Source: Caproicibacterium lactatifermentans
GTDB taxonomy: Bacteria > Bacillota > Clostridia > Oscillospirales > Acutalibacteraceae
Reading direction: 5' to 3'
DNA length: 64,000 bases
Assembly: GCF_013315815.1 (NCBI RefSeq)
Contig: NZ_CP046051.1
Coordinates: 682,001-746,000 of the forward strand
The stretch's first letter is position 1, and each line of letters begins with the position of its first letter. Of this stretch, positions 5,254-20,907 are shown piece after piece. The position numbers and the translations under genes were made by a program. The notes under the pieces were generated by a model. That model searched no databases, was not told the DNA's origin, and worked only from the letters and a program-made list of their open reading frames with translations.

Positions 5254-5254
5254 C

Positions 5255-5267
5255 GTGGCGGAGAGGA
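5255..5267. repeat. Candidate attachment site: 13-bp copy of tRNA-Ser 3' end
   Basis: GTGGCGGAGAGGA is identical, and in the same orientation, to bases 20820-20832, which are the 3' end of the intact tRNA-Ser(GGA) gene on the minus strand. A terminator-like hairpin lies directly beyond it, and conjugative-element debris begins directly inside it. This is the layout left when an element integrates at a tRNA 3' end. The match is short, and the tRNA-Ser(TGA) gene at 56.7 kb carries the same 12-nt end, so the parent tRNA is not certain. Confidence 0.55.
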
Positions 5268-5411
5268 CTATGGCGGCCGGCGGATCTGCAGCAGCGGGAA
5301 GGACGTATTCTGCGGCAGGGAAATGAGAACAAAAAGGTGAAAATATTCCGCTATGTTACAAAAGATACTTTTGATGCCTACAGTTGGTCAATAATTGAAA
5401 ACAAGCAAAAA
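5268..5411 (+). pseudogene. Fragment of SNF2/DEAD-type helicase from a conjugative element
   Basis: The reading frame encodes [19 protein letters not shown] followed by [25 protein letters not shown]. This matches helicase motif VI (QREGR..RQGN) and the downstream segment of the very large methylase/helicase proteins common in clostridial integrative elements. Everything upstream of motif VI is absent, since the fragment starts at the attachment-like repeat. It is interrupted on its 3' side by the group II intron 5' end, exactly after the Lys codon of ENKQK. Confidence 0.75.
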
Positions 5412-6259
5412 GTGCGCCCAGACGCGGTGCAGTGAGAAGTTAAGGTCAAACCACGCAAGACAGCGCGTGAAGCAACCTGCCTAACCGAAAGGCGAAAGCC
5501 GACACGGGAACATAGCACGGCAGGAAAGCGGTAAGTCACCCAAAGGCAATCGGGTGCGACTGAACCGCAATGCTAAGCGGATATAAGGATAAAACTGTGT
5601 TTGTTGAAGGCAAGTTTCGAGTTTCAGTTTTGTTTTTGACGGAGGAAAGTGCCTGAAACCTCTGACACGAGTACAATCGTATAAATTTTTGGTACGATTG
5701 GTTGTCAATAACTCGTGTAACACGCGGGAGAACCCGTAGTAAAGAAACGAAAGCCTATCCGATAACCCGCAATACCAACTCACTGTGCTAACTGGGGATT
5801 GCCTAAGTCGGAACGACTGAAAAGTCTATGCGTAATGCCGCAAGGCGAAAAATCTCAAGACGAAAGTTTAGAGAGATGACGTTGAATATCCGATATGGCA
5901 ACGGAGCCGCCATAGTAGTCCGAGGTTGGGAAAGCCAGCCACATGGCGAGGGGCGGCAGTTACGGCGAGCCAAAATTGAAAGAAATTAGGGAGGAAAACC
6001 TCAAATGGCAGAAATGCTACCAACAATGGAGATTTTGGAGAATATCAGAAAGAATTCAAGCAAAAACAAGGACGAAGTGTTTACGCGGCTATACCGCTAT
6101 ATGCTTCGCAAAGACCTGTACTATGCTGCGTACAAGAATCTGTACGCGAACAATGGAGCGTCAACCCAAGGCGTAGATAGTGATACGGCGGATGGTTTCG
6201 GCGAGGAGAAGATCCAAAATATTATCCAATCCCTTGCCAATGAAACCTATCAGCCTAAT
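5412..6259 (+). mobile_element. Truncated group II intron (5' ribozyme part and start of maturase)
   Basis: The segment begins with GTGCGCCCAGACGCGGTGCA, a classic group II intron 5' end (GUGYG). About 590 nt of structured, non-coding sequence with intron-like GNRA and purine-rich blocks follow, then the maturase start at 6005. The maturase breaks off at about codon 85. No later reverse-transcriptase motifs and no domain V/VI or 3' splice end are present, so the intron cannot splice or move. Its 5' end interrupts the helicase fragment, marking the original target gene. The 3' boundary given is the point where similarity to maturases seems to stop. Confidence 0.82.
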
Positions 6260-6868
6260 GCAGGTTCGGACACACATATACGGAAATTTTTGAAACAGTT
6301 TGGTGTGTCGGATCATGTGATTACTAGGTGCATAAAAGAAAATCGGTTGTATGAGGATAAAGTACATCATGCAATTTTTATTCAGCATGATTTGAATGGA
6401 AATACCGTTGCAGCAAAAAAATATTCTACACTTTCCGGCTATACTGGCTGGTTGAAGAACAGTGATGAAAGTGCGGGATGGATGGTTAAAAATGATGCTC
6501 ATACCTTGTTCGTTACGAACACACCGGTTACAGCTATGCGTGCAATGAGCCAGTATGAAAAAATGGCGAAAAATGCAGATTTCCTTGCAGTAGGAAAACC
6601 CGGTGAAAACGAACCTGCAGACAGTATCAGCAGGCAGGAGTCAAAAATTGTGAATGTCATTATGGGGAGTCCTGAGATTCAAGAAGTTGAAATTGAATCA
6701 TCAATGCCAAATTCACAGGGATTAGTTGATTCGATAAGAAAGTCATTTCCGGAAAAAGACTGTCATGTGATAACATTAAAACCTGTACAAAAATCAGCTG
6801 AAAAGGAAAATATACAGCCCGGCAATAACCTTCTCATACAAGCTGATTCATTAAGTCCGTCGCTTTGA
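6005..6868 (+). pseudogene. Chimeric ORF: maturase N-terminus fused to DUF3991/Toprim-like fragment
   Basis: Residues 1-85 (MAEMLPTMEILENIRKNSSK..., then YRYMLRKDLYYAAYKNLYA and NNGASTQGVDSDTADGFGEE) match the N-terminus of mitochondrial-like-class group II intron reverse transcriptases, up to NETYQPN. From about residue 86 the protein changes to FLKQFGVSDHVITRCIKENRLYE, HAIFIQHDLNGN and STLSGYTGWLKNSDESAGWM. That resembles the DUF3991 plus Toprim primase-like proteins of conjugative elements. The fusion stays in frame for 287 residues. It most likely reflects a deletion that removed the intron 3' half; whether the hybrid is expressed is unknown. Confidence 0.7.
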
Positions 6869-6894
6869 GGTGAAAAATGAATGTTTTTAATTGC

Positions 6895-6922
6895 CGCCCC
6901 CGTAAAAAGGGGCGTTTTTTTT
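6895..6922 (+). terminator. Rho-independent terminator
   Basis: CGCCCC and GGGGCG form a short strong stem followed by eight T residues. It lies 26 nt past the stop of the chimeric ORF. Confidence 0.8.
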
Positions 6923-6963
6923 AGAAACAGGTCTATAATTAAAATATATGAGGTGAATAAGCT

Positions 6964-7587
6964 ATGAGTGAAGAAATGGAGAATCGGCAGATTGTCATCA
7001 ATCCGGATGATCCGGAATCGGTGAAGGAACTTGCAGATTTTGTTGATGCAGTCATGCAGAAAGTCGAACAGAAACGTAAAGAACAACGTCGTGCCAACAT
7101 TGAAAAGAATATTGCATATAGGAAGCAGTTCATAAAAAAATGCCTTGAAAAATACGCAGAATGGAAGTCAATATCAACAATCAATTCGGCTGAGTTTGAA
7201 AATGACCGGCAGTGCTTATCTGTCCTAAACAAAACAGGCAGTGCAGACGACATTTCAAGAGTAATTGCAAAAATTGACTGTGATCCTGCACTTCGGAATT
7301 CTATTGTTGTGCAGCTTGAAAAACTTCTTGAAACTTACGGTGCCGAGTGTGCCTATATTGGAAAAAGTACATCAGAGAGAAAATACAATGTGCTGAAAGC
7401 GTATTACTTTACGATTCCACGGATTAAAATGCCGGACATCATTAAATTGTATCAGACAGAGTTTGGCAGGATCAGCAGCAAAACCAGTACAGTTATGGTT
7501 GACAGGCACACAATTTACCGCGACCTGCGAAATGCAATAAACGATTTTTCGGATTTGTTTTGGGGAGTGTATAATCTTTTTTGTTAA
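6964..7587 (+). CDS. Hypothetical mobile-element protein with C-terminal HTH-like segment
   Basis: A 207-residue, highly charged protein that I do not assign to a named family. Residues 30-60 are Lys/Arg/Glu rich and probably helical. The C-terminus has VDRHTIYRDLRNAINDFSDLFWG, which resembles the last helices of sigma-70 region 4 or ArpU-like phage regulators, so a DNA-binding role is possible. A TATAAT lies near 6930 and a GAGGTG ribosome site precedes the ATG. It is the only apparently intact non-IS gene in the left part of the island. Confidence 0.65.
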   Translation: MSEEMENRQIVINPDDPESVKELADFVDAVMQKVEQKRKEQRRANIEKNIAYRKQFIKKCLEKYAEWKSISTINSAEFENDRQCLSVLNKTGSADDISRVIAKIDCDPALRNSIVVQLEKLLETYGAECAYIGKSTSERKYNVLKAYYFTIPRIKMPDIIKLYQTEFGRISSKTSTVMVDRHTIYRDLRNAINDFSDLFWGVYNLFC

Positions 7588-7596
7588 ATGCTTGTA

Positions 7597-7625
7597 TTGA
7601 CATAATAGACATATAGGAATACAAT
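7597..7625 (+). promoter_or_regulatory. Sigma-A promoter of the antitoxin gene
   Basis: TTGACA at 7597-7602 and TACAAT at 7620-7625 are separated by 17 nt, near consensus, and lie 31 nt before the antitoxin ATG. Confidence 0.7.
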
Positions 7626-7656
7626 AGTGGCAAAATAAGCATACGGGGGTGCATAT

Positions 7657-7855
7657 ATGAAATCCTTACCGTCAAGAGAACTGCGTAACAGTTACCAGAA
7701 AATAAGCGAATACTGCCACAAAACGCATAAACCTATTTGTGTTACCCTGAATGGCTGTGATGATTTAATTGCAATGGACAGCGAATCTTATGAGCACATG
7801 ATGGATTTGCTTGCCTTGGCACAGCAGCTTACATCGGCCAAAGAGGAAAGAGAAG
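7657..7855 (+). pseudogene. Phd/YefM-type antitoxin, truncated by IS insertion
   Basis: The protein MKSLPSRELRNSYQKISEYC..., then KPICVTLNGCDDLIAMDSESYEHM, is the N-terminal DNA-binding part of a Phd/YefM antitoxin. Such proteins bind their promoter and neutralise a RelE/Doc-type toxin. About 66 codons remain. The frame then runs into the left end of the IS3-family element at 7856 and would add IS-coded residues to 7971. The C-terminal toxin-binding part is lost and no toxin gene is recognisable beyond the IS. GGGGTG before the ATG is a plausible ribosome site. Confidence 0.75.
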
Positions 7856-7913
7856 TGAACTGCACCCCATTTGTTAGACAGTATGATATACTGAAAACAA
7901 ATGGGGTGTTTTT

Positions 7914-8279
7914 ATGCCAAAAGGTAAAGCAAAGAAACGATACACAGGAGAATTCAAACAGCAGGTTGTAGAAGCTATGCAAACAGAGAAACTCAGTTAC
8001 AGTGAAGCAGCACGGCAGTTTCACGTGTCTGACCATAAAAGCGTTGCTCAATGGGAACGAATTTATCTGGAAGAAGGACCAGAAGGGCTATATGTGGAAC
8101 GCCGTGGTCGAGCCAGTGCTGCAAGCGGCACTCAGAAAGAACGCAACCCAAAGCTGAACAAAAAGGTAGAAGAAGATTTGATTGCAGAAAACCAACGGTT
8201 GCGTGCAGAGGTAGATTACTTAAAAAAATTGAATGCCTTGGTTTTGGAAGAGGAACGCCGCGACAAAAGGCGCAAGTGA
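7914..8279 (+). CDS. IS3-family transposase OrfA (copy 1)
   Basis: The 121-residue OrfA has an N-terminal helix-turn-helix (YTGEFKQQVVEAMQTEKLSY, then SEAARQFHVSDHKSVAQWER) for binding the IS ends. A C-terminal leucine-zipper-like helix (KKVEEDLIAENQRLRAEVDY, then LKKLNALVLEEER) is typical of IS3-family OrfA dimerisation. An A7 run at 8222-8228 within codons AAA AAA allows a -1 shift into orfB. Confidence 0.92.
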   Translation: MPKGKAKKRYTGEFKQQVVEAMQTEKLSYSEAARQFHVSDHKSVAQWERIYLEEGPEGLYVERRGRASAASGTQKERNPKLNKKVEEDLIAENQRLRAEVDYLKKLNALVLEEERRDKRRK

Positions 8280-9118
8280 TCTGGGAACTAAGGCATAAAC
8301 ACAAGATTTCACTACTAATTGAAGTATCCGGTTTGCCGCGATCAACCTATTACTACTATGCCAAGCGTAGAATGCAACCGGATAAATACAGCGAAATCAA
8401 AGAACAGATCACTGAAATCTACCATGAAAACAAGGGGCGCTATGGTTATCGCCGTACCACAGATGTTCTGCACAGTAGAGGATACTGCATCAATCACAAA
8501 ACCGTCCAGAGGTTAATGAAGCAGCTTGGACTCGTATGCCGAGTGAGAATAAAGAAATATCGTTCTTACAAGGGTGAGGTGGGTAAAATTGCTCCAAATC
8601 TGCTGAAACGGGACTTTGAAGCAACGACACCAAATCAGAAATGGGTAACCGATGTGACCGAATTTAGCCTGTTCGGGCAGAAAGTGTATTTGTCACCGAT
8701 TCTGGATTTGTGCAGCAGGGATATTGTCAGCTACACCATTTCGGACAGGCCGGTTTTGTCGATGGTAACGGAAATGCTGGACAAAGCATTTGAGAAAATT
8801 CCCGATGGTACACAACTTATTCTCCACTCCGATCAAGGCTGGCAGTACCAACACAAGCGGTATCGAAAAGTGCTTGCCGAGAAAGGAATTCAACAAAGCA
8901 TGAGCCGCAAAGGGAACTGCCTTGATAACGCTGTAATGGAAAATTTCTTTGGCTTGCTTAAAAGTGAACTGCTGTATTTGCAGGAATTCGACTCAATCGA
9001 CCAGTTCAAGGACGAACTCGTAAACTATCTGGATTACTACAACAACCGCCGTATCAAAGCAAAACTTAAGGGCTTGCCGCCCGCTTTACATAGGCAACAA
9101 GCCCTTTCGGTTGCTTGA
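7914..9118 (+). CDS. IS3-family transposase OrfAB by programmed -1 frameshift (copy 1)
   Basis: OrfB is read in the -1 frame from about 8228 and is probably made mainly as an OrfAB fusion through slippage on A-AAA-AAA at 8222-8228. OrfB contains the HTH_21-like region (YHENKGRYGYRR) and an rve integrase core. The DDE residues are TDVTEF (first Asp), LHSDQGWQYQ (second Asp) and DNAVMENFFGLLKSE (Glu). The usual YNNRRIKAKLKGLPP end is present. All catalytic residues are intact. YGYRRTTDV has Thr where Ile is usual (copy 2 has Ile), from base 8457. Confidence 0.9.
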
Positions 9119-9153
9119 TTTAAAATATTGTCTAACTTTTTGGGGTCAATTCA

Positions 9154-9357
9154 AACTGAAAGAGCTGGCCAATTATGCCGAGTTTAAAGAAAAGAACCAT
9201 ATGGATATTTCAAAATTCAAGTATCATCAGAATATGAAAAAAAGCTGTTGGATATTTTGCAGAACGATATTTTACCGCTGCGTGACAGCAACTGATCGTG
9301 TACCTGTATGATAAGAAACTGCAAAACGTGACGATCCATGGATACATTTTAAAGTAA
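9154..9357 (+). pseudogene. Decayed coding remnant right of IS copy 1
   Basis: Reading across two apparent frameshifts gives ELANYAEFKEKNHMDISKFK, then SEYEKKLLDILQNDILPLRD, then QLIVYLYDKKLQNVTIHGYI with a stop near 9357. The composition looks like a real protein end broken by small indels. I do not recognise the family. It does not continue the antitoxin frame, so DNA next to the IS may have been lost. From 9358 to 9558 I see an imperfect hairpin (AGCCTTTCT...AGAAAGGCT, 9357-9389) and a possible short frame ending in VSTPKIRSGMVKMKV, but no gene. Confidence 0.4.
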
Positions 9358-9558
9358 GCCTTTCTCTCTATCAAATCAAGAAAGGCTCAATGGCTCAGAT
9401 CCCCATTTTGCAGGAGTTCTGATGGCTTGTCTATTTACTTTTGCGAACATCACATACTTTATCTAACAATGCCGATTGTATTATAAAATGGGCAATACCA
9501 TTGAAGTCGTATCAACGCCCAAAATAAGAAGCGGAATGGTAAAAATGAAGGTGTAATC

Positions 9559-10141
9559 TTGGTGGATAAGAATACAACCGGTAAGATTAAGCAAGAACTT
9601 ACCAAACAGGAAAAAGTTGTTTCTCTCTTCAAATTCATTGAAGAAATAAATAAGTTGAAGCAGAAGATAGTGCTCCGGGTATCTGATTATCCATGGTGGT
9701 ATTCCATTAACGATCTTCCTGATGATTCCGAGAACATTAAAGTTTATTATCGGGATTATGCAGAAGAGGACTCAGAGACTGGTCCCAATACTCTGCTGCC
9801 TGTGCATAAGCCTGAATTTCAGAGCTGTCCCGAACCTGATCTCAGGTTTGAAGAATGGCTGGATCAGGGCTGAAATGATTATTGTTACAAAGCTAAAACA
9901 AAAGAATTCGTTCTCCATTCTCGTGACCAGATACAGGCTCAAGAAGAACTCTCAGAAGCGGATCAAGAGCGCATCAATAAAGAGAATCAAACTTTTAAGG
10001 AATTTTTCACCGATGACCCAGAGCGGGTTGAGGTATATAAGGCCTGGTCTTCTAAGCGAAATGTCTGGGCGGAAAAGCAGAGACTGCTTACTAAGACGTG
10101 GGATTTCTTTTCTGAACTCTACAAAACAAGTATCGATCTGA
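9559..10141 (+). pseudogene. Truncated large helicase/ATPase gene with in-frame stop
   Basis: The frame opens at TTG 9559 and encodes FKFIEEINKLKQKIVLRVSD, YPWWYSINDLPDDSENIKVY and NTLLPVHKPEFQSCPEPDLR. A TGA at 9871-9873 stands where the same frame resumes as NDYCYKAKTKEFVLHSRDQI and VEVYKAWSSKRNVWAEKQ, so TGG to TGA is likely. From memory this resembles the N-terminus of large superfamily I helicase-like proteins of clostridial accessory regions. The frame then runs directly into the OrfA of a second IS3 remnant at about 10142, so the rest of the gene is missing. Confidence 0.55.
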
Positions 10142-11304
10142 AAATGGGGAAATACGACAAGGAATTTAAGGAAGAAGCGGTTAAACTCTCGGACGGGGTT
10201 GGAATCAAACAGGCGGCTGCGCAACTGGGAGTGGCATATTACACGTTGTCGGAATGGCGGCAGAAGCGTAAGGCATATGGTGATCATGCTTTTGTTGGCA
10301 GCGGGATTCGCCGCTGAACGAGAATGAGCGCAGGCTGATGAAAGAAAATGCTGAATTGCGCAAAGCTAATGAGATTCTCAAAGATGCACTCGGCTTTTTC
10401 GCAAAAGACCGGAAGGAGTAAAAGCGGAACGGCTTTATGAATATATCACGTTGCGCAGGACAAAATTCAGTGTTCATGCGATGTGCCGCGTACTCAAAGT
10501 AAGTGAGTCCGGGTACTACCAAAGTCTTTTTCATGTCTGCGAACCGAGACCATGGCAACTGCTTTTGGTCAAAATCAAACAGGTTTATACACGACATCCA
10601 AATAACGACAACTATGGAGTGAATCGCATTCGACTCGTGCTAAAGCAAAACGGTATCTCTGTGAGTAAAAGCACAGTACGGCGCGCTATGAAAAAAGGCG
10701 GTCTTATTAAAACTTCGCCGCGCCATTCCGGCAGCTTGACCGAATCAGACGCCGATGCGCAGAAAGCCGACAACCTGATTGTACGGAATTTTACTGCTGA
10801 TGCCCCAAATCGGAAGTGACTGACCGATATTACTCAGATTCCATGCCGAGACGGCAAGCTGTATATTGCTCAGGTTCTGGATTGCTATAATGGTGAGATT
10901 GTAGGACTCGCCATGGATGACAACATGAAAAAAGGTCTGTGTATTAAAGCATTCGAATCTGCCTGTCGATCACAGTCTGCTGTCGGTATGATCCTCCATA
11001 GCGACCGGGGAAGCCAGTTTACCAGCGCCGCATTCAGAAACGTTTTGGCCCGGCATGGTGCTATCCAAAGCATGAACGGAACCGGATGTTGCTACGACAA
11101 TGCCAGAATGGAAAGCTTTTTCGCCACGTTGAAAAAGGAAAAGCTCTACAAAATAAAGACGGAACAGTTGTCCATGGCTCAGGTCAAAGCATTGTGCTCC
11201 GGTACATCATGACATATTACAACCGTATTCGAATTTATACTGGCAATCCCGGCGGGCTTCCTCCTGCTATGTATCGTCAGGCTGCAAGAGGGGTAGCTGC
11301 TTAA
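10142..11304 (+). mobile_element. Degenerate IS3-family element remnant
   Basis: This covers orfA and orfB of a second, unrelated IS3-family element. No left terminal repeat is visible, because helicase coding sequence runs up to the OrfA start, so the left end has been lost. The right end past 11304 is undefined; TTTTGGGGTG at 11310-11320 may be terminal sequence. It cannot be autonomous. Confidence 0.75.
10144..11304 (+). pseudogene. IS3-family transposase, multiply disrupted
   Basis: OrfA begins MGKYDKEFKEEAVKLSDGVG and keeps the helix-turn-helix (AAAQLGVAYYTLSEWRQKRK). It is then frameshifted near 10311 and resumes as PLNENERRLMKENAELRKAN. OrfB has TDITQIPCRDGKLYIAQVLD, LHSDRGSQFTS and DNARMESFFATLKKEK, so all three DDE positions remain. 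A TGA at 10817-10819 replaces the conserved Trp of NRKWLTD, and a second frameshift near 11200 precedes YYNRIRIYTGNPGGLPPAMY. At least three inactivating lesions make this a pseudogene. Confidence 0.85.
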
Positions 11305-11387
11305 TCAGATATTTTGGGGTGTTCATACTCTGCACAGTTCTTGACTTTTCCAAGAGGCTTCAAATGCCTAACACACTTACAAAACAG

Positions 11388-11421
11388 AAAAGCTAGGAAA
11401 TCCGCAGATTCCCTAGCTTTT
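11388..11421. repeat. 34-bp stem-loop, left member of a diverged pair
   Basis: AAAAGCTAGG and CCTAGCTTTT are perfect 10-bp arms around a short partly paired centre. A copy with 28 of 34 identical bases lies at 20598-20631. On the minus strand this hairpin follows the CCA end of the tRNA-Thr fragment after 4 nt, so it is probably that tRNA's terminator. Confidence 0.7.
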
Positions 11422-11425
11422 CTGA

Positions 11426-11472
11426 TGGAGCTGTTAACGCGATTCGAACGCGTGACCTCATCCTTACCAAGG
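11426..11472 (-). pseudogene. 3' portion of tRNA-Thr(GGT)
   Basis: On the minus strand the 47 nt from CCTTGGTAAGGATGAGGTCA to the CCA end make up the 3' half of the anticodon arm, the variable region, a complete T arm (ACGCG-TTCGAAT-CGCGT) and the 3' acceptor strand AACAGCTCCA. The anticodon reads GGT. The 5' half, including the D arm, is missing and replaced by AT-rich sequence. Such 3' fragments mark integration at a tRNA gene. No intact tRNA-Thr is present in this window. Confidence 0.8.
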
Positions 11473-12068: not shown

Positions 12069-12446
12069 ATGCCAAGACCTAAAAAGTGGCGAAAAGTTTG
12101 CTGTATGCCACGTAACACTGAGTTTGTGCCGGTTGGAATGAACTTTCAATCTGACGATACGGTAGTGATGACAGTGGATGAATATGAGACAATACGTCTC
12201 ATTGACCATGAAAACTTTACCCAAGAGGAATGTGCTGGGTATATGAAGATTGCCCGCACCACAGTACAGCAGATTTACAATCATGCCAGACAGAAGCTAT
12301 CCGTCTTACTAGTAGAGGGCAAGCCACTTGTAATTAGAGGTGGCGAATATCAACTTTGTGATGGTAACGAGCCCTATTGTAGATGTGGCGGTTGCCAACG
12401 TAGCCGTCGTGGTTGTAGACAAACGGAGGAAGGAGATAATTCATGA
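12069..12446 (+). CDS. DUF134 family DNA-binding protein
   Basis: The 125-residue protein starts MPRPKKWRKVCCMP, the DUF134 signature, with VGMNFQSDDTVVMTVDEYET and IRLIDHENFTQEECAGYMKI. The segment FTQEECAGYMKIARTTVQQI is a sigma-70 region 4-like helix-turn-helix. The C-terminus has a Cys cluster (CDGNEPYCRCGGCQRSRRGC) that could bind a metal or Fe-S centre (inference). It could be the regulator of its own operon. The stop overlaps the next gene's start by 4 nt. Confidence 0.88.
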   Translation: MPRPKKWRKVCCMPRNTEFVPVGMNFQSDDTVVMTVDEYETIRLIDHENFTQEECAGYMKIARTTVQQIYNHARQKLSVLLVEGKPLVIRGGEYQLCDGNEPYCRCGGCQRSRRGCRQTEEGDNS

Positions 12447-12805
12447 AAATAGCAATTCCTGTAGATGAAAATAAAGCGGAAACATCTGTTTGTGTTTCCT
12501 TTGGAAGAGCACCGTATTTTATGCTTTATGATACTGACAATAATCAAATGGACTATATCATTAATACTGCCACCGAGGCACAGGGCGGTGCGGGACTGAA
12601 AGCTGCTCAACTATTGGTGGACAACGGTGCCGATATTCTGCTCACTGTTCGTTGTGGACAAAATGCAGCCGATGTACTGAAGGCAGCGAATGTGAAAATT
12701 TATAAGACCGAATACTCCGGCTTAAATGAAAATCTTGCTGCATTTTGGGAGGGAAAGCTTACGCTCATGACGCAGTTTCACGCGGGCTTTCATGGAAACC
12801 AATGA
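12443..12805 (+). CDS. NifX/NifB-C-like dinitrogenase iron-molybdenum cofactor domain protein
   Basis: A 120-residue single-domain protein of the NifX/NafY/orange-protein fold (MKIAIPVDENKAETSVCVSF, GRAPYFMLYDTDN, GADILLTVRCGQNAADVLKA). Relatives bind FeMo-co or Mo-Cu clusters. No nitrogenase gene is present, so a role in metal-cluster handling with the adjacent ATPases is inferred. Start and stop overlap the neighbouring genes by 4 nt each (ATGA), implying translational coupling. Confidence 0.88.
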   Translation: MKIAIPVDENKAETSVCVSFGRAPYFMLYDTDNNQMDYIINTATEAQGGAGLKAAQLLVDNGADILLTVRCGQNAADVLKAANVKIYKTEYSGLNENLAAFWEGKLTLMTQFHAGFHGNQ

Positions 12806-13641
12806 AGGTAGCAGTTCTGAGTGGGAAAGGCGGTACGGGCAAAACCTTTGTGTCTGTGAATCTAGCAGCAGTAGCGGGTAAATCCACCTATATCGACTGC
12901 GATGTTGAGGAACCAAACGGGCGACTGTTTTTTAAGCCGGAGAATGTGACAACGCAAACCGTTAACATTCGGTTGCCCGCTTTTAGTGGTTCAAAATGTA
13001 CCGGTTGCCGGAAATGTGTGGAATTCTGTCACTTCAATGCGCTGGCCTTCGTGAAGAACAAACCCCTGTTGTTTTCTGAGGTCTGTCATTCCTGTGGCGG
13101 ATGTGCATTAATATGCCCCGCTAAAGCCATCACTGAAATGGAAAAGTCAGTGGGTATTGTGGAGTGCGGAGAATTCGGCGATATTCACGTAGTTACCGGT
13201 TGTATGAATTTGGGTGAAGCATCCGGTATTCCAATTATCAAAGCTGCACTTACCCATGTTGGGGAAATGGACGAGTTGACCGTAATTGACTGTCCTCCGG
13301 GCAGTGCTTGCTCGGTTATGGAGAGCGTACAAAATGCTGACTATTGCTTAATCGTTGCAGAGCCAACAGCTTTTGGATTGCACAATTTTAAAATGGTCTA
13401 CGAGCTTGTACAGCTGCTTCATAAACCCTGCGGAATGGTTATTAACAAGGTGGACAACGAGTTCAATAGGTTGGATGAATTTTGTGCACAAAATGGTATT
13501 CCGGTGCTGTGTCGCATTCCATACAGTAAGACGCTTGCGGAGCTTAGTGCTAAGGGAAAGATTGCCTCTTTGCACAGCGATGAAATCGCCACACAGTTTC
13601 ACACTCTTCTTGCTGATGTGAGGGAGGTGGCTAAGCTATGA
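12802..13641 (+). CDS. MinD/Mrp-type ATPase with two ferredoxin 4Fe-4S motifs (first copy)
   Basis: The 279-residue protein is a MinD-superfamily P-loop ATPase with a bacterial ferredoxin insert. MKVAVLSGKGGTGKTFVSVN contains the deviant Walker A. DCDVEEPNGRLFF follows. The two cluster motifs are CTGCRKCVEFCHFNALAF (about residues 67-84) and CHSCGGCALICPAKAI (about 95-110). VIDCPPGSACSVM is the Walker B region. Paired ATPases of this kind occur in orange-protein/NifX clusters. I chose ATG 12802, which overlaps the previous stop as ATGA; an upstream in-frame extension lacks a ribosome site. Function: probable Fe-S or metal-cluster carrier or partitioning ATPase (inference). Confidence 0.9.
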   Translation: MKVAVLSGKGGTGKTFVSVNLAAVAGKSTYIDCDVEEPNGRLFFKPENVTTQTVNIRLPAFSGSKCTGCRKCVEFCHFNALAFVKNKPLLFSEVCHSCGGCALICPAKAITEMEKSVGIVECGEFGDIHVVTGCMNLGEASGIPIIKAALTHVGEMDELTVIDCPPGSACSVMESVQNADYCLIVAEPTAFGLHNFKMVYELVQLLHKPCGMVINKVDNEFNRLDEFCAQNGIPVLCRIPYSKTLAELSAKGKIASLHSDEIATQFHTLLADVREVAKL

Positions 13642-14525
13642 AAAAACTGCTGATTCTTAGTGGAAAGGGTGGTACGGGGAAAACTACCGTTACTGCCGCT
13701 TTCATCGACTTCCTTCATGTTGCCGCGTTTGCGGATTGTGACGTAGACGCGCCAAACCTGCATCTGGTGACAGGTGTAACTGGAATTCCGGAATGTAAGG
13801 ATTACTATGGTTCTCAAAAAGCATCTATTGATCAACAAAAATGTATTGGCTGCGGAGCCTGTCGTGCCAAATGTCGCTTTGATGCTATTTCACTCAATAA
13901 CGGTAAATATAGAATAAGTGAGTATGCCTGTGAGGGCTGTGGAGTTTGCCAGTATGTTTGTCCAGAAAATGCCGTAATAATGAGCAACGACATTGCCGGA
14001 GAGCAGATGCTATATCGGGATAATCGCGTTTTTTCCACGGCAAAACTGAAAATGGGTAGGGGAAATTCTGGCAAGCTGGTGACTGAAGTCAAAATGGCAC
14101 TTTCAAAATCTGCGCATGATGTCGATCTTGCCGTCATAGACGGTTCCCCTGGTATCGGATGTCCAGTAATTGCCTCGGTCAGTGGTGTGGACCTAGTCCT
14201 CATCGTAGCGGAACCCTCTATTTCTGGTATCCACGATATGAAGCGTATTTTGAAAACAACGGCCGCACTCCGAGCAAAGACTGCAGTGTGCGTCAATAAA
14301 TATGATACTTGCCATGAAAACGCAAATGTGATTGAGCAGTATTGCATAGAAAATTCAGTGCCTTTTGTGGGGCGTATTCCATACGACGAGCGTGCATCTG
14401 TAGCCATTAATGCAGGACACAGTCTTGCGTCCGTAGATTGCCCGGCAAGAGAGGCATTGAAAAACATGTGCAGGGATGTTATGGCTTTAATGAATTTAGA
14501 AAGCTTTGATGAGAAACATACTTGA
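13638..14525 (+). CDS. MinD/Mrp-type ATPase with two ferredoxin 4Fe-4S motifs (second copy)
   Basis: A 295-residue paralogue of the preceding gene: MKKLLILSGKGGTGKTTVTA (Walker A), DCDVDAPNLHL, CIGCGACRAKCRFDAI, CEGCGVCQYVCPENAV and VIDGSPGIGCPVIASV. The twin order (two ATPases, each with two 4Fe-4S motifs) suggests they act as a heterodimer. The start overlaps the previous stop by 4 nt (ATGA). GC content is lower than that of flanking chromosomal genes, consistent with transfer. Confidence 0.9.
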   Translation: MKKLLILSGKGGTGKTTVTAAFIDFLHVAAFADCDVDAPNLHLVTGVTGIPECKDYYGSQKASIDQQKCIGCGACRAKCRFDAISLNNGKYRISEYACEGCGVCQYVCPENAVIMSNDIAGEQMLYRDNRVFSTAKLKMGRGNSGKLVTEVKMALSKSAHDVDLAVIDGSPGIGCPVIASVSGVDLVLIVAEPSISGIHDMKRILKTTAALRAKTAVCVNKYDTCHENANVIEQYCIENSVPFVGRIPYDERASVAINAGHSLASVDCPAREALKNMCRDVMALMNLESFDEKHT

Positions 14526-14679
14526 CAGACCTGACGCGTTGCCAAAACATGGTTCGTGGCAGGCTTCGGAGCGGGCACTAAGCGAATTCTCAAATGCTGG
14601 AGTATTGGGTGAAATAGGCAAGGCGATTTATGATGATTATGCCCATGGCAATTCCATTTATGACAAGGACATGTCATAA
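14509..14679 (+). CDS. Small ORF, 56 aa, unknown
   Basis: An open frame from ATG 14509 overlaps the end of the second ATPase gene by 17 nt. It encodes MRNILDRPDALPKHGSWQAS, then GEIGKAIYDDYAHGNSIYDK. No good ribosome site is visible and I recognise no family. It may instead be the C-terminal relic of a longer gene whose 5' part was replaced. Low confidence that it is translated. Confidence 0.3.
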   Translation: MRNILDRPDALPKHGSWQASERALSEFSNAGVLGEIGKAIYDDYAHGNSIYDKDMS

Positions 14680-14768
14680 GAGAAGCATAGAGGACAACAT
14701 ACTGCCATTTTATAAAAATTAAAGCCGCAATTCGCGGCACAAATAACATTAATTAAGGAGAATGTATT

Positions 14769-15140
14769 ATGAAAATCGCTGTAGCAAGTATGGGTAACAT
14801 GGTAGCAGGTCACTTTGGCCACTGCGAAAATTTCAACATCTACGAAAGCACAAACGGTTCAATCACAAAGGTACAAAGCATTCCAAATCCCGGCCACAAG
14901 CCCGGATATTTGCCGAATTTCCTTGGAGACATGAATGTAGAGGTCATTATTGCCGGTGGTATGGGCGGTGGTGCCGTTGAAATCTTTAATGAACGCAATA
15001 TTGAAGTCATTGTTGGTGCAGAGGGGGACGCAAAGGACGCTGCGGTGCGTTATCTGCGAGGCGAGTTGAAATCTACTGGTTCTATTTGCCATGAACATGA
15101 GTACGCAGACGAGTGCGGAGAGCATCAATCACAGAAATAA
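14769..15140 (+). CDS. NifX-like dinitrogenase iron-molybdenum cofactor domain protein (second copy)
   Basis: The 123-residue protein starts MKIAVASMGNMVAGHFGHCE and has NVEVIIAGGMGGGAVEIFNE and the C-terminal tail HEHEYADECGEHQSQK. The core is the NifX/orange-protein fold; HFGHCENF and the His/Cys-rich tail offer metal ligands. GGAG lies 9 nt before the ATG. It ends the cluster before a terminator. A short degraded copy of its 3' region lies at 15393-15448. Confidence 0.88.
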   Translation: MKIAVASMGNMVAGHFGHCENFNIYESTNGSITKVQSIPNPGHKPGYLPNFLGDMNVEVIIAGGMGGGAVEIFNERNIEVIVGAEGDAKDAAVRYLRGELKSTGSICHEHEYADECGEHQSQK

Positions 15141-15182
15141 ATCGACACTCAAAATTTAGGAAAATATCTCATTAAACTACTG

Positions 15183-15448: not shown

Positions 15449-15450
15449 TT

Positions 15451-16665
15451 TTACTTATTTATTATTTTTATGGTGGAAATGATATGTGATTTGTTTGGCT
15501 TTTCATCTGTGCTTAACTGTGTCTGCAAGTGTTCCTTTTTTTCTAGGTGATTCCCATTAGATGATTTGAATAAGTAAGCCGATATTACGGTTGTAAATGG
15601 AATCGTAAACAGCATACCGAGACTTCCAATTAAAGACTGAAGAATCTCTACGATAATTTCTTCTTTATTAAGTAGTTGAAGAATAGGATAATTGGATACG
15701 GCATAAATCAATACGGTGATTAAACTGCTGCCAATATACGCAAGAATCAATGTGTTTGTCATCGTTCCCATGATATCTTTGCCAATTGTAAGTCCAGATT
15801 GAATTATTTGAATTTTTGTCATGCCAGCTTTATTATTTTGTATTTCTTCCAGTGAAGATGCAATTGACATCGCAACATCCATTGTTGCGCCTAGGGCACC
15901 AATGGTAACCATTGCGAAAACGATGGCTTTTAAATCCAATGGACATTCCATAAATGTTTGCTTTAAACGGGAGGTCTGATCATTATAATATCCGGTTAAT
16001 TTCATAATTCTTTCCATGATGATATAAATGGTTGCTGAGAATGCAACACCACCGGAGCAACCAATGATAGAAGCTAAACTTTTTTTGTTAATACCACCTG
16101 TAAGTATGTATGAAACGATTATAATATAAATGCAAATTACAATTGGTGAACAGTAAATATTAAATCCAGCCATAATACATGGAATGAACACCAAAAAGAT
16201 GGCAAGGCAGGTTAGTGCGAGAGAAAGGATTGTCATTAATCCTTTTTTTCCTCCAAAGATAACAATCAGGCCAACAAAGGCGATTAATAGCCAAATAATT
16301 TGTTCCAATCTGTCATAATTTTCAAATGCATATTCAGTAGAACTGCCTGCAGATAGTTTGCCAAGAACTACTTTATCATTTTGATGAACCTGTGGGGGCA
16401 TTGTATCATTGTGTTTATAAGCGTACTGAGTTGCATGGACAGAAGTTCCTTTACCTTTTCCAGAGGTAATAACACACGTGAATTTTACAACATTGGTGCT
16501 GGAATCTGTTTGATTTGGTGTGATAGAATCAAGCTTTATGACTTTTGCAAAGACCTGATCCTTTATCTCTGATTCAGAGTCTGATACGGTGATGTTCAGT
16601 GCATGCGAGGTTGCAAATTTGTTACCAATACATAAAAAAAGTATGGAAAATACAGAACAATCCAC
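15451..16665 (-). CDS. YibE/F family membrane protein
   Basis: A 404-residue polytopic membrane protein. An N-terminal extracytoplasmic beta-rich region (FAKVIKLDSI, VIKFTCVITSGKGKG-like) is followed by about eight hydrophobic segments beginning IIWLLIAFVGLIVIFGGKKG. The central GALGATMDVAMSIASSLEEI is characteristic of YibE/F proteins; the family's function is unknown. Only a short, weak N-terminal hydrophobic stretch is in this frame. An overlapping frame contains a better one (VMWIVLYFPYFFYVLV), so a small frameshift near 16640 is possible. It is transcribed towards the NifX-like gene. Confidence 0.85.
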   Translation of the reverse strand: MDCSVFSILFLCIGNKFATSHALNITVSDSESEIKDQVFAKVIKLDSITPNQTDSSTNVVKFTCVITSGKGKGTSVHATQYAYKHNDTMPPQVHQNDKVVLGKLSAGSSTEYAFENYDRLEQIIWLLIAFVGLIVIFGGKKGLMTILSLALTCLAIFLVFIPCIMAGFNIYCSPIVICIYIIIVSYILTGGINKKSLASIIGCSGGVAFSATIYIIMERIMKLTGYYNDQTSRLKQTFMECPLDLKAIVFAMVTIGALGATMDVAMSIASSLEEIQNNKAGMTKIQIIQSGLTIGKDIMGTMTNTLILAYIGSSLITVLIYAVSNYPILQLLNKEEIIVEILQSLIGSLGMLFTIPFTTVISAYLFKSSNGNHLEKKEHLQTQLSTDEKPNKSHIISTIKIINK

Positions 16666-17055
16666 ATCACTTTACTTTGACTAACCTTCATTTTCGTCAC
16701 ATCCTTTTCGTGTAATCCTATGCTTGTACGAAAGGGGATATGCAGTACCAAATTTAAGTCATGATCGGGTTTGCGTATGAAAATGATAAAGCAAGGAGTA
16801 GTAACGGTGTAAATCAACGATCACTCGGTTTTGTAACACGTTGTACACGCAGACAAATGGCAGTAGGTAGCACAGACGTTTTCTTGCATATGTCATACTA
16901 TGACGAATTTGTCGACAAACTTTTAAAAATTGATTTTATGTAGATTTAAAACATCTATGCCAGAAATTTTAGGAAGGAAGAGATTTCCTTTATAAAAGCA
17001 GCTTATATTCAAATTAGCATAAACCCGAAATCTTTTAAAAAATTCCAATAAAGTC
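16666..17055. other. Intergenic region, no gene supported
   Basis: This AT-rich stretch between the divergent yibE/F-like and feo genes shows only short frames. One of 60 codons on the plus strand (16761-16943) has no ribosome site and unconvincing composition. It presumably carries the promoter of the yibE/F-like gene. Confidence 0.4.
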
Positions 17056-17148
17056 TTGACAATTTCAGTTAGCGGTGGAAAACTGTTGATGTTCAACGGT
17101 TAGTGTACGCTAATCTTTATTTTTGATATTCCAGTTAGCTAACGCTAA
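17056..17148 (+). promoter_or_regulatory. feoA regulatory region with two TTAGC-type operator boxes
   Basis: Box 1 is TTAGTGTACGCTAA (17100-17113). Box 2 is TTAGCTAACGCTAA (17135-17148), an exact TTAGC-N4-GCTAA. A TTGACA at 17056 may be a -35, but no good -10 is seen. The boxes resemble DtxR/IdeR-type iron operators in having TTAG/CTAA ends. Two more boxes of the same form lie before feoB, so the regulon is probably local. The DtxR-like gene at 20090 is the likely binder (inference). Confidence 0.7.
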
Positions 17149-17171
17149 TTTCATAGGGAGGTGTGGTAATA

Positions 17172-17384
17172 ATGATGCCATTATCCATGGCAAAGCCGGG
17201 CGAACCGGTGACAATCCGCCGGATTGGCGGCAAAGACGAGGTGCGTCAGCATTTGGCGGAGCTTGGTTTTGTGGTGGGCGGAGAAGTGATGGTGGTTAAT
17301 GAGCTTGGCGGTAATCTGATTTTACAGGTAAAGGACAGCCGCATTGCGCTGGACAAAACCATGGCAAATCGAATTCAGTTTTAG
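17172..17384 (+). CDS. feoA: Ferrous iron transport protein A, first copy
   Basis: A 70-residue SH3-like FeoA domain protein: MAKPGEPVTIRRIGGKDEVR, LAELGFVVGGEVMVVNELGG and DSRIALDKTMANRIQF. FeoA is a small cytoplasmic partner of the FeoB GTPase permease. I chose ATG 17172 because GGGAGG (17156-17161) is 10 nt upstream; a GTG at 17163 abuts that site and is less likely. It leads the feoA-feoA-feoB unit, 11 nt before the second copy. Confidence 0.9.
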   Translation: MMPLSMAKPGEPVTIRRIGGKDEVRQHLAELGFVVGGEVMVVNELGGNLILQVKDSRIALDKTMANRIQF

Positions 17385-17395
17385 GGGGTAGAGAA

Positions 17396-17617
17396 ATGAA
17401 AACACTAAAAGATGTTAAGGTAGGAGAATCCGCAACTGTGCAAAAACTGCATGGTGAGGGTGCTGTAAAACGTCGCATTATGGACATGGGGCTTACCAAG
17501 GGTACGCAGCTGACGGTTCGTAAGGTTGCGCCGCTTGGTGATCCTATGGAACTGCACGTGCGTGGCTATGAGCTTTCCGTACGGAAAGCAGACGCAGAGA
17601 TGATTGAAGTCGAGTAA
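17396..17617 (+). CDS. feoA: Ferrous iron transport protein A, second copy
   Basis: The 73-residue FeoA domain protein has VGESATVQKLHGEGAVKRRI, MDMGLTKGTQLTVRKVAPLG and ELSVRKADAEMIEVE, closer to the standard FeoA consensus than the first copy. Twin feoA genes before feoB are common in Clostridia. A GGGGG-type ribosome site lies before the ATG. An 81-nt gap with two operator boxes separates it from feoB. Confidence 0.92.
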   Translation: MKTLKDVKVGESATVQKLHGEGAVKRRIMDMGLTKGTQLTVRKVAPLGDPMELHVRGYELSVRKADAEMIEVE

Positions 17618-17642
17618 AGCATTGTAAAAACAGCGATACGAG

Positions 17643-17675
17643 TTAGCAAAAGCTAATAAAGCTAGCCTATGCTAA
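17643..17675 (+). promoter_or_regulatory. Two TTAGC-N4-GCTAA-type boxes before feoB
   Basis: TTAGCAAAAGCTAA (17643-17656) is an exact TTAGC-N4-GCTAA. CTAGCCTATGCTAA (17662-17675) differs at one base. They match the boxes upstream of the first feoA, implying a second, internally placed control point ahead of feoB. Confidence 0.7.
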
Positions 17676-17698
17676 AATATTTTTGAGGAGGAAAGTAA

Positions 17699-19863
17699 AT
17701 GGCAGTTACAATTGCGCTGGCAGGCAACCCGAACTGTGGCAAAACAACGCTTTTTAATGACCTGACAGGCTCCAATCAGTATGTCGGCAACTGGCCGGGT
17801 GTAACAGTGGAAAAGAAAGAAGGGCACCTAAAAGGGCATAAAGATGTAGTCATTCAGGATTTACCAGGTATCTATTCGCTTTCACCGTACACGTTGGAAG
17901 AAGTGGTGGCACGTTTTTACTTGGTCAATGAAAAGCCAAATGTCATTCTCAACATCATTGACGGAACCACATTGAGCGCAACCTGTACCTGACGACGCAG
18001 CTGCTGGAGCTGGGAATTCCGGTGCTGATTGCAGTCAACATGATGGATTTGGTGGAGAAAAGGGGCGACACCATTGATACAGATAAGCTTGGCGCGGAGC
18101 TTGGGTGTGAAGTAGTCGAAATCAGCGCGCTGAAAGGCCGCGGCGGAGAAGAAGCCGCTGAAAAAGCAGCTTTCCTGGCACTGAAGAAAGCGGATTTCAA
18201 CAAAAGACCGCACGTCTTTACCGGCAGCGTGGAACACGCGATTGCACATATTGAGGAATCGATACAGAGCATGGTAAATGACCAGAATCTGCGCTGGTAC
18301 GCCATCAAAGTTTTTGAACGTGACGAAAAAGTGCTGGCGGAAATGAAATTTGATGGAGAGTTGAAACAGCATCTGGAACAGCACATCAAAGACTGTGAAA
18401 CGGAAATGGACGATGACTCTGAAAGCATCATTACAAACCAAAGATATGCTTACATAAAAGGCGTTATTGAAAAGTCGGTAAAGAAAAAACCAGTCAAAGG
18501 TAACCTAACCATTTCAGATAAAATCGATAAAATCGTTACGAACCGTGTGCTTGGCATTCCGATATTCCTTGGCATCATGCTTCTTGTTTATACCATTTCG
18601 ATGGGTACCGTCGGCAAGCTAGTTACTGACTGGACAAATGATACCCTGTTTGGCACAATCATTCCTCCAGCGGTGCAGGGATGGCTTACCTCCATTGGCT
18701 GTGCTGATTGGTTGAACAGTTTAATTGTTGACGGCATTATTGGTGGTGTTGGTGCGGTGCTTGGCTTTGTTCCGCAAATGCTGATTTTATTCTTAATGCT
18801 TGCCATTCTTGAGGATATTGGATATATGTCTCGCGTTGCATTCATTATGGACCGCATTTTCCGCAAGTTTGGTTTAAGCGGAAAAAGCTTTATCCCGATG
18901 CTGATTGCTTCCGGCTGTGGTGTGCCGGGTATCATGTCCAGCCGCACCATTGAAAATGACCGTGACCGTAAAATGACCATTATGACGACTACCTTCATTC
19001 CGTGTGGCGCAAAAATGCCAATTGTGGGCCTGTTCGCTGGCGCACTGTTTGGCGGCAATCCATTCATTGCCATGTCCGCGTACTTAATTGGTGTTGCTGC
19101 AGTTGTCATTTCCGGTATTCTGCTGAAAAAGACAAAGCCCTTCGCGGGCGACCCGGCACCATTTGTTATGGAACTGCCTGCCTACCATGTACCGAGTGCC
19201 AAAAACGTTTTGCACGCCATGTGGGAGCGCGGCTGGAGTTTTATCAAGCGTGCCGGTACGGTCATTTTTGCAGCCTCCATTGTGCTTTGGTTCCTGCAGG
19301 GTTTTGGCTTCACAAACGGTCAGTTCGGCTTGGTCGAGGACAACAATACTTCTCTGCTGGCTTTAATCGGTCAGGCAATCGCATTTATTTTTGCACCGCT
19401 TGGCTTTGATTCCTGGAAAGCGACCGTTGCTACCTTCACGGGCCTGATTGCAAAGGAAGAGGTTGTGGGTACATTCGGGGTTCTGTATGGTGGCATTGAC
19501 GTCGAAAATGGCACCCAGCCCATTTGGGGTGCGTTAGCTCACGATTTCACGCAGCTTTCTGCGTACAGCTTCCTAATTTTTAACCTGCTGTGCGCGCCGT
19601 GCTTTGCAGCGATGGGTGCCATTAAACGTGAAATGAATTCCGCTAAATGGACCATGGGCGCAATCGGTTATATGTGCGGCTTTGCCTATGCCATTTCCTT
19701 GATTGTGTATCAGCTTGGGATGTTGTTCTCTGGCGCAGGGTTCTCGGTTGGTACAGTTGCAGCCATTGCTATCCTAGTATTTTTGGTTTATATGGTTGCA
19801 CGTAAAAATAAATATAATGATAACGTTTTAACAATGAGTTCTGTTGCTGCTGCCGCAAAGTAA
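17699..19863 (+). pseudogene. feoB: Ferrous iron transporter FeoB, frameshifted in the G domain
   Basis: The first frame (17699-17992) encodes the GTPase start GNPNCGKTTLFNDLTGSNQY, with DLPGIYSLSPY. It ends abnormally after NIIDGTTLSATCT. The next frame continues as VLIAVNMMDLVEKRGD and runs to 19863 through the FeoB transmembrane domain (SGCGVPGIMSSRTIENDRDR, PCGAKMPIVGLFAGALF). Restoring one A near 17968 gives the expected IIDGTNIERNLYLTTQLLEL, so a single-base deletion explains the break. FeoB is a membrane Fe(II) permease; if the lesion is real no full protein is made. A sequencing error is the main alternative, since the rest is intact. Confidence 0.88.
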
Positions 19864-19890
19864 GACAACAGAACAAAGGAGGGAGTTTGT

Positions 19891-20043
19891 ATGAATCTTC
19901 CTACACTAATCGGGATTCTAATCATCGTGGCGGTGGTTGCTGCCATTGTCGCCACAGGTGTTTGGAACAAAAAACATCATAAAGGCGGTTGTGGCTGCGG
20001 TTGTGACCACTGTCCAAACGGTGGTGCTTGTCACACAAAATAA
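19891..20043 (+). CDS. FeoB-associated Cys-rich small membrane protein
   Basis: A 50-residue peptide with one N-terminal transmembrane helix (LIGILIIVAVVAAIVATGVW) followed by KKHHKGGCGCGCDHCPNGGA and CHTK. The Cys-rich tail and position directly after feoB match the FeoB-associated Cys-rich membrane protein family, thought to act with FeoB as a FeoC-like accessory. AAAGGAGGG precedes the ATG. It ends just before a terminator. Confidence 0.9.
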   Translation: MNLPTLIGILIIVAVVAAIVATGVWNKKHHKGGCGCGCDHCPNGGACHTK

Positions 20044-20045
20044 CC

Positions 20046-20073
20046 AAAGCGGGCTTATGCCCGCTTTCTTTTT
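20046..20073 (+). terminator. Terminator after the feo genes
   Basis: AAAGCGGGC and GCCCGCTTT pair around a TTAT loop, with a T-rich tail. It separates the feo genes from the regulator, so the regulator depends on readthrough or its own promoter. Confidence 0.85.
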
Positions 20074-20089
20074 AGGAGAGAACTGATTT

Positions 20090-20428
20090 ATGGAAGAACT
20101 GACCAGTACTCATCTGCGGTATCTGCTGGCAATTTATCAGATTGCTAAGTTGGAGCGGGATGTCTGTTCCACAAGCATTTCACAGTTTTTAAATGTCAGT
20201 GGTCCCTCGGTCTCTCGAATGCTGGGGGTGCTGACACAGAAGAAACTGATTGCAAAAATGCGGTACAGCAAAATTTATCTGACAGACAAAGGCTTTCTGC
20301 TGGCGCGTGAATTGGACAAAAAAGTAACCTTGCTCAAGGAACGTATTCCACGAATGGGCATTCCAATGACAGAAGAAGAAATTGAGCAGGTGGCATTTGC
20401 ACTGGCGGAGCTTATCGCCAACAGATGA
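20090..20428 (+). CDS. DtxR/MntR-family-like winged-helix regulator, short
   Basis: The 112-residue protein begins MEELTSTHLRYLLAIYQIAK and has ISQFLNVSGPSVSRMLGVLT (recognition helix), then KMRYSKIYLTDKGFLLAREL (wing). This is the DtxR/MntR N-terminal fold. It is shorter than MntR (~140 residues). By eye, the His/Glu ligands that follow the wing in MntR (RHELLE and EGIEHH regions) are replaced by DKKVTLLKERIP and EIEQVAFALAEL. Metal response by the usual site is therefore doubtful. Its position after feo suggests control of the TTAGC boxes. AGGAGAG is a good ribosome site. Confidence 0.82.
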   Translation: MEELTSTHLRYLLAIYQIAKLERDVCSTSISQFLNVSGPSVSRMLGVLTQKKLIAKMRYSKIYLTDKGFLLARELDKKVTLLKERIPRMGIPMTEEEIEQVAFALAELIANR

Positions 20429-20502
20429 GCGCAGACCAGTGCCGTCAGGAAATCCTTAAAAATACGGGCATTATGTATGATCCATCTAATGAATCAAAAT
20501 AA
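20425..20502 (+). CDS. Tiny ORF overlapping the regulator stop, 25 aa
   Basis: ATG 20425 overlaps the regulator's stop as ATGA and encodes MSADQCRQEILKNTGIMYDP, then SNESK. Coupled translation is possible, but the peptide is unrecognised and may be only the relic of a longer gene. Confidence 0.25.
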   Translation: MSADQCRQEILKNTGIMYDPSNESK

Positions 20503-20597
20503 GTTGAAATGCATAGAGAATAGCTTTGTTTCTCTGATTCATTGACAACTTTATGACATGTAAATTAACTTTAAATGAATAACACTCTGATCAAACA

Positions 20598-20631
20598 AAA
20601 AGCTAGGGAACCCGCAAGTTTCTTAGCTTTT
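20598..20631. repeat. 34-bp stem-loop, right member of a diverged pair
   Basis: AAAAGCTAGGGAAC...GTTTCTTAGCTTTT matches the stem-loop at 11388-11421 at 28 of 34 positions, including a T-A to C-G compensatory change (positions 14 and 21). It probably acts as a terminator and may mark the other end of the inner cargo segment. The rest of 20503-20820 shows no gene. Confidence 0.55.
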
Positions 20632-20761
20632 CCTGCTTTTATTATACTATGAATAGAATAAGACGAAACAAATAGATAAAAGCCCTGCGAGTTGATGTGG
20701 TTGCTACCGTGATTCAAAAGAGTGGTCTTACTCATACTATCTCTTGCTATCTCTTATTAAT

Positions 20762-20815
20762 AAAAAAATCCAAAACCACTATTCCGTTCGGCAAAAACAA
20801 AATAGGGTTTTGGAT
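20762..20815 (-). terminator. Terminator of tRNA-Ser(GGA)
   Basis: ATCCAAAACC and GGGTTTTGGAT are complementary. Read on the minus strand, the stem is followed by seven T residues. Confidence 0.7.
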
Positions 20816-20820
20816 ATGAG

Positions 20821-20907
20821 TGGCGGAGAGGATGCGACTCGAACGCACAATGCCTTGCGGCACACCACATTTCCAATGTGGCTCCTTACCAATTAGAATA
20901 CCTCTCC
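20821..20907 (-). tRNA. tRNA-Ser(GGA)
   Basis: An 87-nt tRNA with acceptor strands GGAGAGG/CCTCTCC, a long class II variable arm (GTGCCGCAAGGCAT region), anticodon GGA in TTGGAAA, T arm GTTCGAGTC and encoded CCA. Its 3' end is duplicated at 5255-5267, so it is the likely integration target of the island on its left. Confidence 0.95.

Follow-up and report, generated by a model that had tools for sequence, protein, structure and literature searches.

Integrative and conjugative elements (ICEs) and integrative and mobilizable elements (IMEs) that enter tRNA genes by means of tyrosine or serine integrases are described as bounded by a direct repeat that includes the end of the target, with the tRNA kept whole and with cores of 2-60 bp (PMC5704250, PMC4701971). 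Cis-mobilizable elements (CIMEs) are described as having lost the genes for integration and transfer while retaining their attachment (att) sites, and as taking part in accretion (PMC5704250). In rumA-type serine-integrase ICEs, one copy of a 2-21 bp repeat lies in the target gene and the other in the integrase gene (PMC4701971). The subject here is a 15.6-kb island of Caproicibacterium lactatifermentans that separates a carbon-nitrogen hydrolase ("nitrilase") gene from an intact tRNA-Ser(GGA) gene. It lies in a stretch of 64,000 nucleotides (the window) of a genome (G000) consisting of one contig of 1.99 Mb. A composite, decayed island linked to tRNA-Ser is of an ordinary, known kind; the tRNA-Thr segment inside it is unusual. 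With moderate confidence, we read the locus as a composite island, now decayed, that was founded at the tRNA-Ser(GGA) 3' end by integration of an element bearing its own terminator.

The genome was compared with others at one genome per species, comprising 10 relatives of the genus besides G000, a family set of 398 genomes and an order set of 394 genomes (G000 included); no island-free strain of the same species was among them. A scan of contigs for relatives listed 51 loci, of which the best had 64% identity, and near genomes may be missing from that list. The features that define the two ends are as follows.

5227..5249, no strand assigned: hairpin hp1, directly outside the left repeat (stem 5227-5235/5241-5249)
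5255..5267, + strand: left repeat copy, putative displaced tRNA-Ser 3' end (sequence, repeat counts)
20768..20815, - strand: hairpin hp2, terminator beside the intact tRNA-Ser (sequence; homology to tRNA-Ser terminators of relatives)
20820..20832, + strand: right repeat copy, tRNA-Ser 3' end (sequence, repeat counts)
20821..20907, - strand: intact tRNA-Ser(GGA) (tRNA call; Rfam)

The 13-mer GTGGCGGAGAGGA has two exact copies in the window when both strands are searched, against 0.001 expected under an order-1 model. Because the tRNA gene is on the minus strand, the plus strand shows its 3' end as the reverse complement; the 13-mer is made up of 12 tRNA bases, including CCA, and one flanking base. 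Both copies stand where the preliminary description had put them, and the right one is indeed the 3' end of an intact tRNA-Ser(GGA). Exact direct repeats of at least 13 bp are common in the window (73 maximal repeats, 48 of them of exactly 13), so length alone carries no meaning. Among the 73, only the GTGGCGGAGAGGA pair touches any of the six tRNA genes of the window, and the chance expectation of the 13-mer at one given 16-base junction is 1.8e-7. A chance match was therefore judged very unlikely. With up to two mismatches allowed, there are four matches against 1.0 expected, a number reached in 5 of 100 shuffles, and tRNA-Ser(TGA) at 56731-56819 has 12 of 13 bases in common with the 13-mer. 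Like the tRNA-borne ICEs and IMEs, the island has a repeat with the tRNA 3' end on both sides and a whole tRNA, and three relatives with matching gene order lack it. It is unlike them in that no integrase is seen near either end, in the 13-bp length of the left copy and in the placement of the terminators.

The left copy is followed almost immediately by debris of other genes.

5271..5411, + strand: C-terminal fragment of an SNF2-type helicase gene (homologs; weak match to an SNF2-like helicase, DrmD, 22 bits)
5412..6255, + strand: truncated group II intron, 5' part only, including the start of its reverse-transcriptase gene (approximate ends, judged by eye)
6005..6868, + strand: fused open reading frame (ORF) of the intron protein start and a DUF3991-like C-terminal part (22.0 bits, below the cut-off of 24.5)

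Helicase debris begins at 5270/5271, in agreement with the earlier claim of element debris directly inside the left copy. A search of 5240-5415 against the order set returned 17 rows from 16 genomes besides G000 itself; alignments start at query base 31 or 32 in 15 of these rows, at 38 and 44 in the other two, and in none inside the 13-mer. A Monoglobus plasmid also aligns (query 32-172), and the same segment has no phage match; the helicase fragment has no Pfam match. The possibility that the 13-mer is part of the helicase gene was ruled out, since its homologs start behind the repeat. At about 5412 the helicase gene is interrupted by the group II intron, so that the 13-mer belongs to neither. 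The intron segment is 66-67% identical to Lactococcus plasmids over group II intron genes, its maturase match of 20.6 bits is far under the cut-off of 300, and Rfam at E 0.1 over 4-22 kb reported tRNA-Ser alone and no group II intron. No plasmid match was found for 6255-7650.

The preliminary description had predicted that relatives without the island would carry the nitrilase gene and its hairpin beside tRNA-Ser(GGA). The genes flanking the island are those for the nitrilase, polyphosphate kinase (ppk), Ppx/GppA (ppx) and, beside tRNA-Ser, a class II tRNA synthetase of the D, K and N group, which we take to be asnS. It is present in nine of the 10 other genomes of the genus, with identities of 86% to G007 and 84% to G002 and G006. 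The empty arrangement of nitrilase, hairpin, tRNA-Ser(GGA) and asnS was found in three of these nine (G002, G005 and G007), with 358-482 bases between the nitrilase and asnS matches that hold tRNA-Ser(GGA) and at least one hairpin. Four others (G004, G006, G009 and G010) have tRNA-Ser(GGA) adjoining asnS and the nitrilase gene not adjacent; in G003 and G001 the stretch examined yielded no tRNA, the G001 contig starting within asnS. The order in G601, from another genus, is ppk, ppx, an ORF, tRNA-Ser and asnS (the last by eye). The empty sites indicate that the island was inserted between the nitrilase gene and tRNA-Ser. Its content is foreign to the flanks, as had been proposed: the guanine-plus-cytosine (GC) content is 42.6%, compared to 52.0% on the left and 48.9% on the right, and the lowest GC of any stretch of equal length elsewhere in the window is 45.0%. 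Codon-usage distance from the flank genes is 0.31-0.70 for 11 island genes, of which FeoB (0.31) is the least foreign, and 0.16-0.30 for six flank genes that are themselves inside the reference.

The island is not a single element. A second scar lies within it, and relates to a different tRNA.

11353..11424, - strand: downstream sequence and terminator hairpin of tRNA-Thr type, left of the tRNA-Thr half (comparison with relatives)
11425..11472, - strand: 3' half of tRNA-Thr(GGT), anticodon stem to CCA (47 of 48 bases as in the intact gene at 924.9 kb)
20475..20631, - strand: sequence and hairpin of the type that follows tRNA-Thr in G008 and G009, with tRNA-Thr missing (comparison with relatives)

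The last of the 48 compared bases falls just past CCA, and the sequence at 20475-20631 stands 9 kb beyond the half. An island at tRNA-Thr(GGT) of G008 (L095, 4335-11309) is broken at the same point of the anticodon arm, to within one base, and has the same types of terminator and flank; it differs from the segment in the window by its type IIG restriction-modification gene and by the presence of tRNA-Thr. That gene is the cargo of the G008 island, and no integrase was noticed in its ORF list. The sequence at 20475-20631 matches DNA directly downstream of the G008 tRNA-Thr, which is there the end of the island, and 20525-20631 matches DNA downstream of the G009 tRNA-Thr, where no island is shown. 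From these comparisons, the segment 11353-20631 as a whole may be a former tRNA-Thr island; its right end is the weaker half of this interpretation, as it could be plain DNA downstream of a tRNA-Thr. The tRNA-Thr gene of G000 itself adjoins genes for phosphofructokinase and DNA polymerase III, as in G004; no island was seen between them, and the DNA downstream of this tRNA-Thr is unlike that in the island. Genes of DUF134 and NifX type also lie downstream of tRNA-Thr in G002 (49% and 37% amino acid identity), and NifX2-like pieces (83%) lie beyond the tRNA-Thr island of G008. The feo operon of the island is 80% identical in nucleotides to a block in G002 that has other neighbors, and in relatives the feo block stands at other, non-syntenic places. 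The tRNA-Thr half, the tRNA-Thr-type downstream DNA and the feo block found elsewhere in relatives indicate that the island is an assembly. The preliminary description of an integrated element that has lost its integrase is thus supported in part, by the empty sites, the foreign content and the lack, among 20 island ORFs scanned, of any recombinase other than those of insertion sequences (ISs); its assertion that everything between the repeats is one element is not supported.

In general terms, the decay of the island resembles that of CIMEs, and of tandem accretion of CIMEs and ICEs: no integration or transfer genes were found among the scanned ORFs, the ends are att-like, although the left one has only 13 bp, and several elements were assembled. 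It differs in specificity, the inner att half being of tRNA-Thr(GGT) and the outer of tRNA-Ser(GGA), where tandem accretion involves the same specificity. Among 20 island ORFs scanned (feoB as two parts), no relaxase, VirB4 or coupling protein, the mark of an ICE of the Tn1549 kind, was found, only the helicase fragment and the DUF3991 match below cut-off.

Elements that appear to use the same tRNA end were found in another genus of the family and in a phage contig. A contig (L186) of G692, a genome of another genus that is 56% complete, encodes at 8290-9927 a serine recombinase of 545 residues with Resolvase, Recombinase and zinc-ribbon domains. The gene runs through AG-TCCTCTCCGCCAC into a terminator of tRNA-Ser type; no tRNA gene was found in this contig, and a run of N follows the terminator. 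A 97% identical recombinase ends likewise in a 53.5-kb IMG/VR record, IMGVR_UViG_3300038365_000209 (L235, 11303-12913; the same contig as L220), where it adjoins HTH and IrrE-like genes. The 62 bases behind the core in this phage record are those behind tRNA-Ser in G614, from another genus than G000, in which no element is seen by eye next to tRNA-Ser; the 12-mer core occurs only once in the record. Of 26 viral stretches with GAGTCCTCTCCGCCA, one (L235) is the recombinase end, and a simple motif test picked out none of the other 25. A search of viral contigs with the tRNA-Ser pattern for attR examples of the G692-type element gave 0 stretches. Relatives of the G692 recombinase at 1e-60 are present in 81 of the 398 family genomes; G000 has no match at this threshold, and no genome-wide search for tyrosine integrases was made in it. 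The layouts in G692 and the phage contig resemble rumA-type ICEs in having a repeat copy in the serine integrase gene, and are unlike them in the target, here the tRNA-Ser 3' end; the window has no integrase left. They are what a serine-integrase element at the tRNA-Ser 3' end should look like. Judged from these sequences, the tRNA-Ser 3' end is very likely used as a core for integration within the family. A more far-reaching reading, of rather low probability, is that a large serine integrase of prophage or ICE type, with its gene running through the core, targeted the 3' end of tRNA-Ser(GGA) and founded the island, and that whole segments with tRNA-Thr halves can re-home between tRNA loci.

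We infer site-specific integration as the founding step, an element-borne hp2 and the following order of events. The ancestral order would have been nitrilase, hp1 and tRNA-Ser. An integrase would have joined the tRNA 3' end with an element bearing its own copy of that end and the terminator hp2, rebuilding the tRNA on the right and displacing the native 3' end and hp1 to the left. The integrase may later have been lost by deletion, together with the left end of the element; the break would lie inside the helicase gene, no more than two bases from the repeat. Deletions may also have fused the group II intron to a toprim-type gene. The cargo part at 11353-20631 would earlier have been an island at tRNA-Thr(GGT), of which an attachment-site half was retained, and IS3 elements presumably entered later. 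The island is now probably a fixed relic.

The terminators are the puzzling point of the locus. The hairpin outside the left copy exists as described, and its T-run is longer toward nitrilase, so that it also fits a tRNA-Ser terminator. By eye, its layout of short A-run, stem and T-run pointing away from the tRNA is that at the tRNA-Ser ends of G004, G005, G006 and G010. A simple integration at the tRNA is expected to move the native terminator to the left, together with the displaced copy. In alignments scored as z against 200 shuffles, hp2 is unlike the terminators of G002, G004, G005, G006 and G010 (z 0.3-3.3). It is homologous to the terminators that follow the core in G692 and in the phage record, which, with the tRNA-Ser terminators of other relatives, give z 8.1-13.5; the top scores are with G614 and the phage record. 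Either the inserted DNA carried hp2, hp1 being native, or something other than a simple integration at the tRNA took place. Precedent for an element-borne terminator is found in G008, where the two ends of the tRNA-Thr island are identical over 95 bases, the terminator included. One further feature adjoins the left repeat.

5268..5269, + strand: CT following the repeat; repeat plus CT equals, as a 15-mer, the attL-like end of the G692 serine-integrase element (sequence)

Several observations weigh against founding by integration with an element-borne hp2. The terminator hp2 is homologous to the tRNA-Ser terminators of G007, G009, G601, G614 and G670 (z 8.1-13.2), which makes it native by parsimony, and tRNA integration does not predict this. 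The likeness of hp1 to hp1-type ends is weak (z 2.3-5.0), hardly above that to hp2 of the window (3.0) and to G002 (3.0). In G692 and the phage contig, the hp2-type terminator stands on the displaced side, opposite to the window. The left copy is 13 bp long, compared to the 48-base tRNA half at the tRNA-Thr scar. The 15-mer AGTCCTCTCCGCCAC occurs in only two of 398 family genomes, namely G692 and the left end of the window, and gives mild support only, because a reversed control also matched two of 398 and agreement of the two additional bases has a chance probability of 1 in 16. Finally, the 20 scanned ORFs contain only IS3-type rve domains and no integrase remnant.

An alternative that accounts for hp2 without an element-borne terminator is replacement by donor DNA. 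Chromosomal DNA of a relative ending in hp2, tRNA-Ser and asnS would have recombined homologously at the tRNA or asnS, with end-joining inside the recipient tRNA-Ser 3' end leaving the 13 bp. Consistent with such a source, other genera have hp2 as the terminator of their chromosomal tRNA-Ser gene, the highest score being with G614, and the cargo resembles pieces of relatives, with feo 80% identical to G002 and DNA downstream of tRNA-Thr similar to that in G008 and G009. End-joining would, however, have to strike by chance the very sequence with which a serine-integrase gene of this family terminates, and the affinity of asnS (86% to G007, 84% to G002 and G006) is not odd. We consider this replacement unlikely. 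Accretion between a nitrilase terminator and a native hp2, with no integration at tRNA-Ser and with the left 13-mer as a coincidence or by-product, is a further alternative. Consistent with it, the tRNA-Ser terminators of relatives share homology with hp2, G002 has a hairpin near nitrilase and a separate one near the tRNA, and repeats of such length abound in the window. Nevertheless, the 13-mer coincides precisely with both the junction and a tRNA 3' end (chance expectation 1.8e-7 for that spot), and none of the other listed repeats touches a tRNA, making accretion of this kind rather improbable. An assembly error is highly improbable, as G000 is one contig, the junctions are sharp and at biologically sensible places, the multi-copy IS is not located at the island ends and no point in favor was found.

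The remaining content of the decayed composite island consists of IS elements and a small set of cargo genes.

7657..7854, + strand: PhdYefM antitoxin gene, cut by an IS (domain match; IS start)
7855..9153, + strand: IS3-family insertion sequence (~100% identical to three full-length G000 copies)
10451..11352, + strand: degenerate second IS3-type element (left end not fixed)
12069..15140, + strand: genes for DUF134, NifX-like, two MinD/Mrp-type ATPases with ferredoxin domains and an MrpORP C-terminal-like protein (domain matches)
15451..16665, - strand: YibE/F-like membrane protein gene (domain match)
17163..20043, + strand: feo operon with two feoA, feoB and a FeoB-associated protein (domain matches)
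20090..20428, + strand: iron-dependent-repressor/MntR-like regulator (NCBIfam matches below cut-off)

The IS3 copy is recent, given its near identity to the three other full-length copies. A copy ~100% identical to that in the island also lies at 26667-27964 of the window. Relatives of the second Mrp-type ATPase at 1e-30 are present in only two of 11 genomes of the genus, G000 included. The feoB gene is split into two frames between 17960 and 18022; two further feoB-like genes are located at 933.0 and 1356.0 kb in G000. Between the regulator gene and the tRNA-Thr-type end, a short ORF (20425-20502) resembles the tail of an HD-GYP protein. Near the tRNA-Ser of G009, two CRISPR-like repeats were seen (L026, about 5080-5200), with cas-like ORFs beyond (by eye).

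The iron cargo, comprising feo with a broken feoB and the MrpORP-like iron-sulfur genes, is a minor set, and the remainder is ordinary island decay. The serine integrase of G692 and the phage contig is a testable candidate for an enzyme that apparently acts at a tRNA 3' end through a core no longer than 13 bp. More generally, the locus suggests how a tRNA-linked island can arise from pieces of islands with another tRNA specificity.

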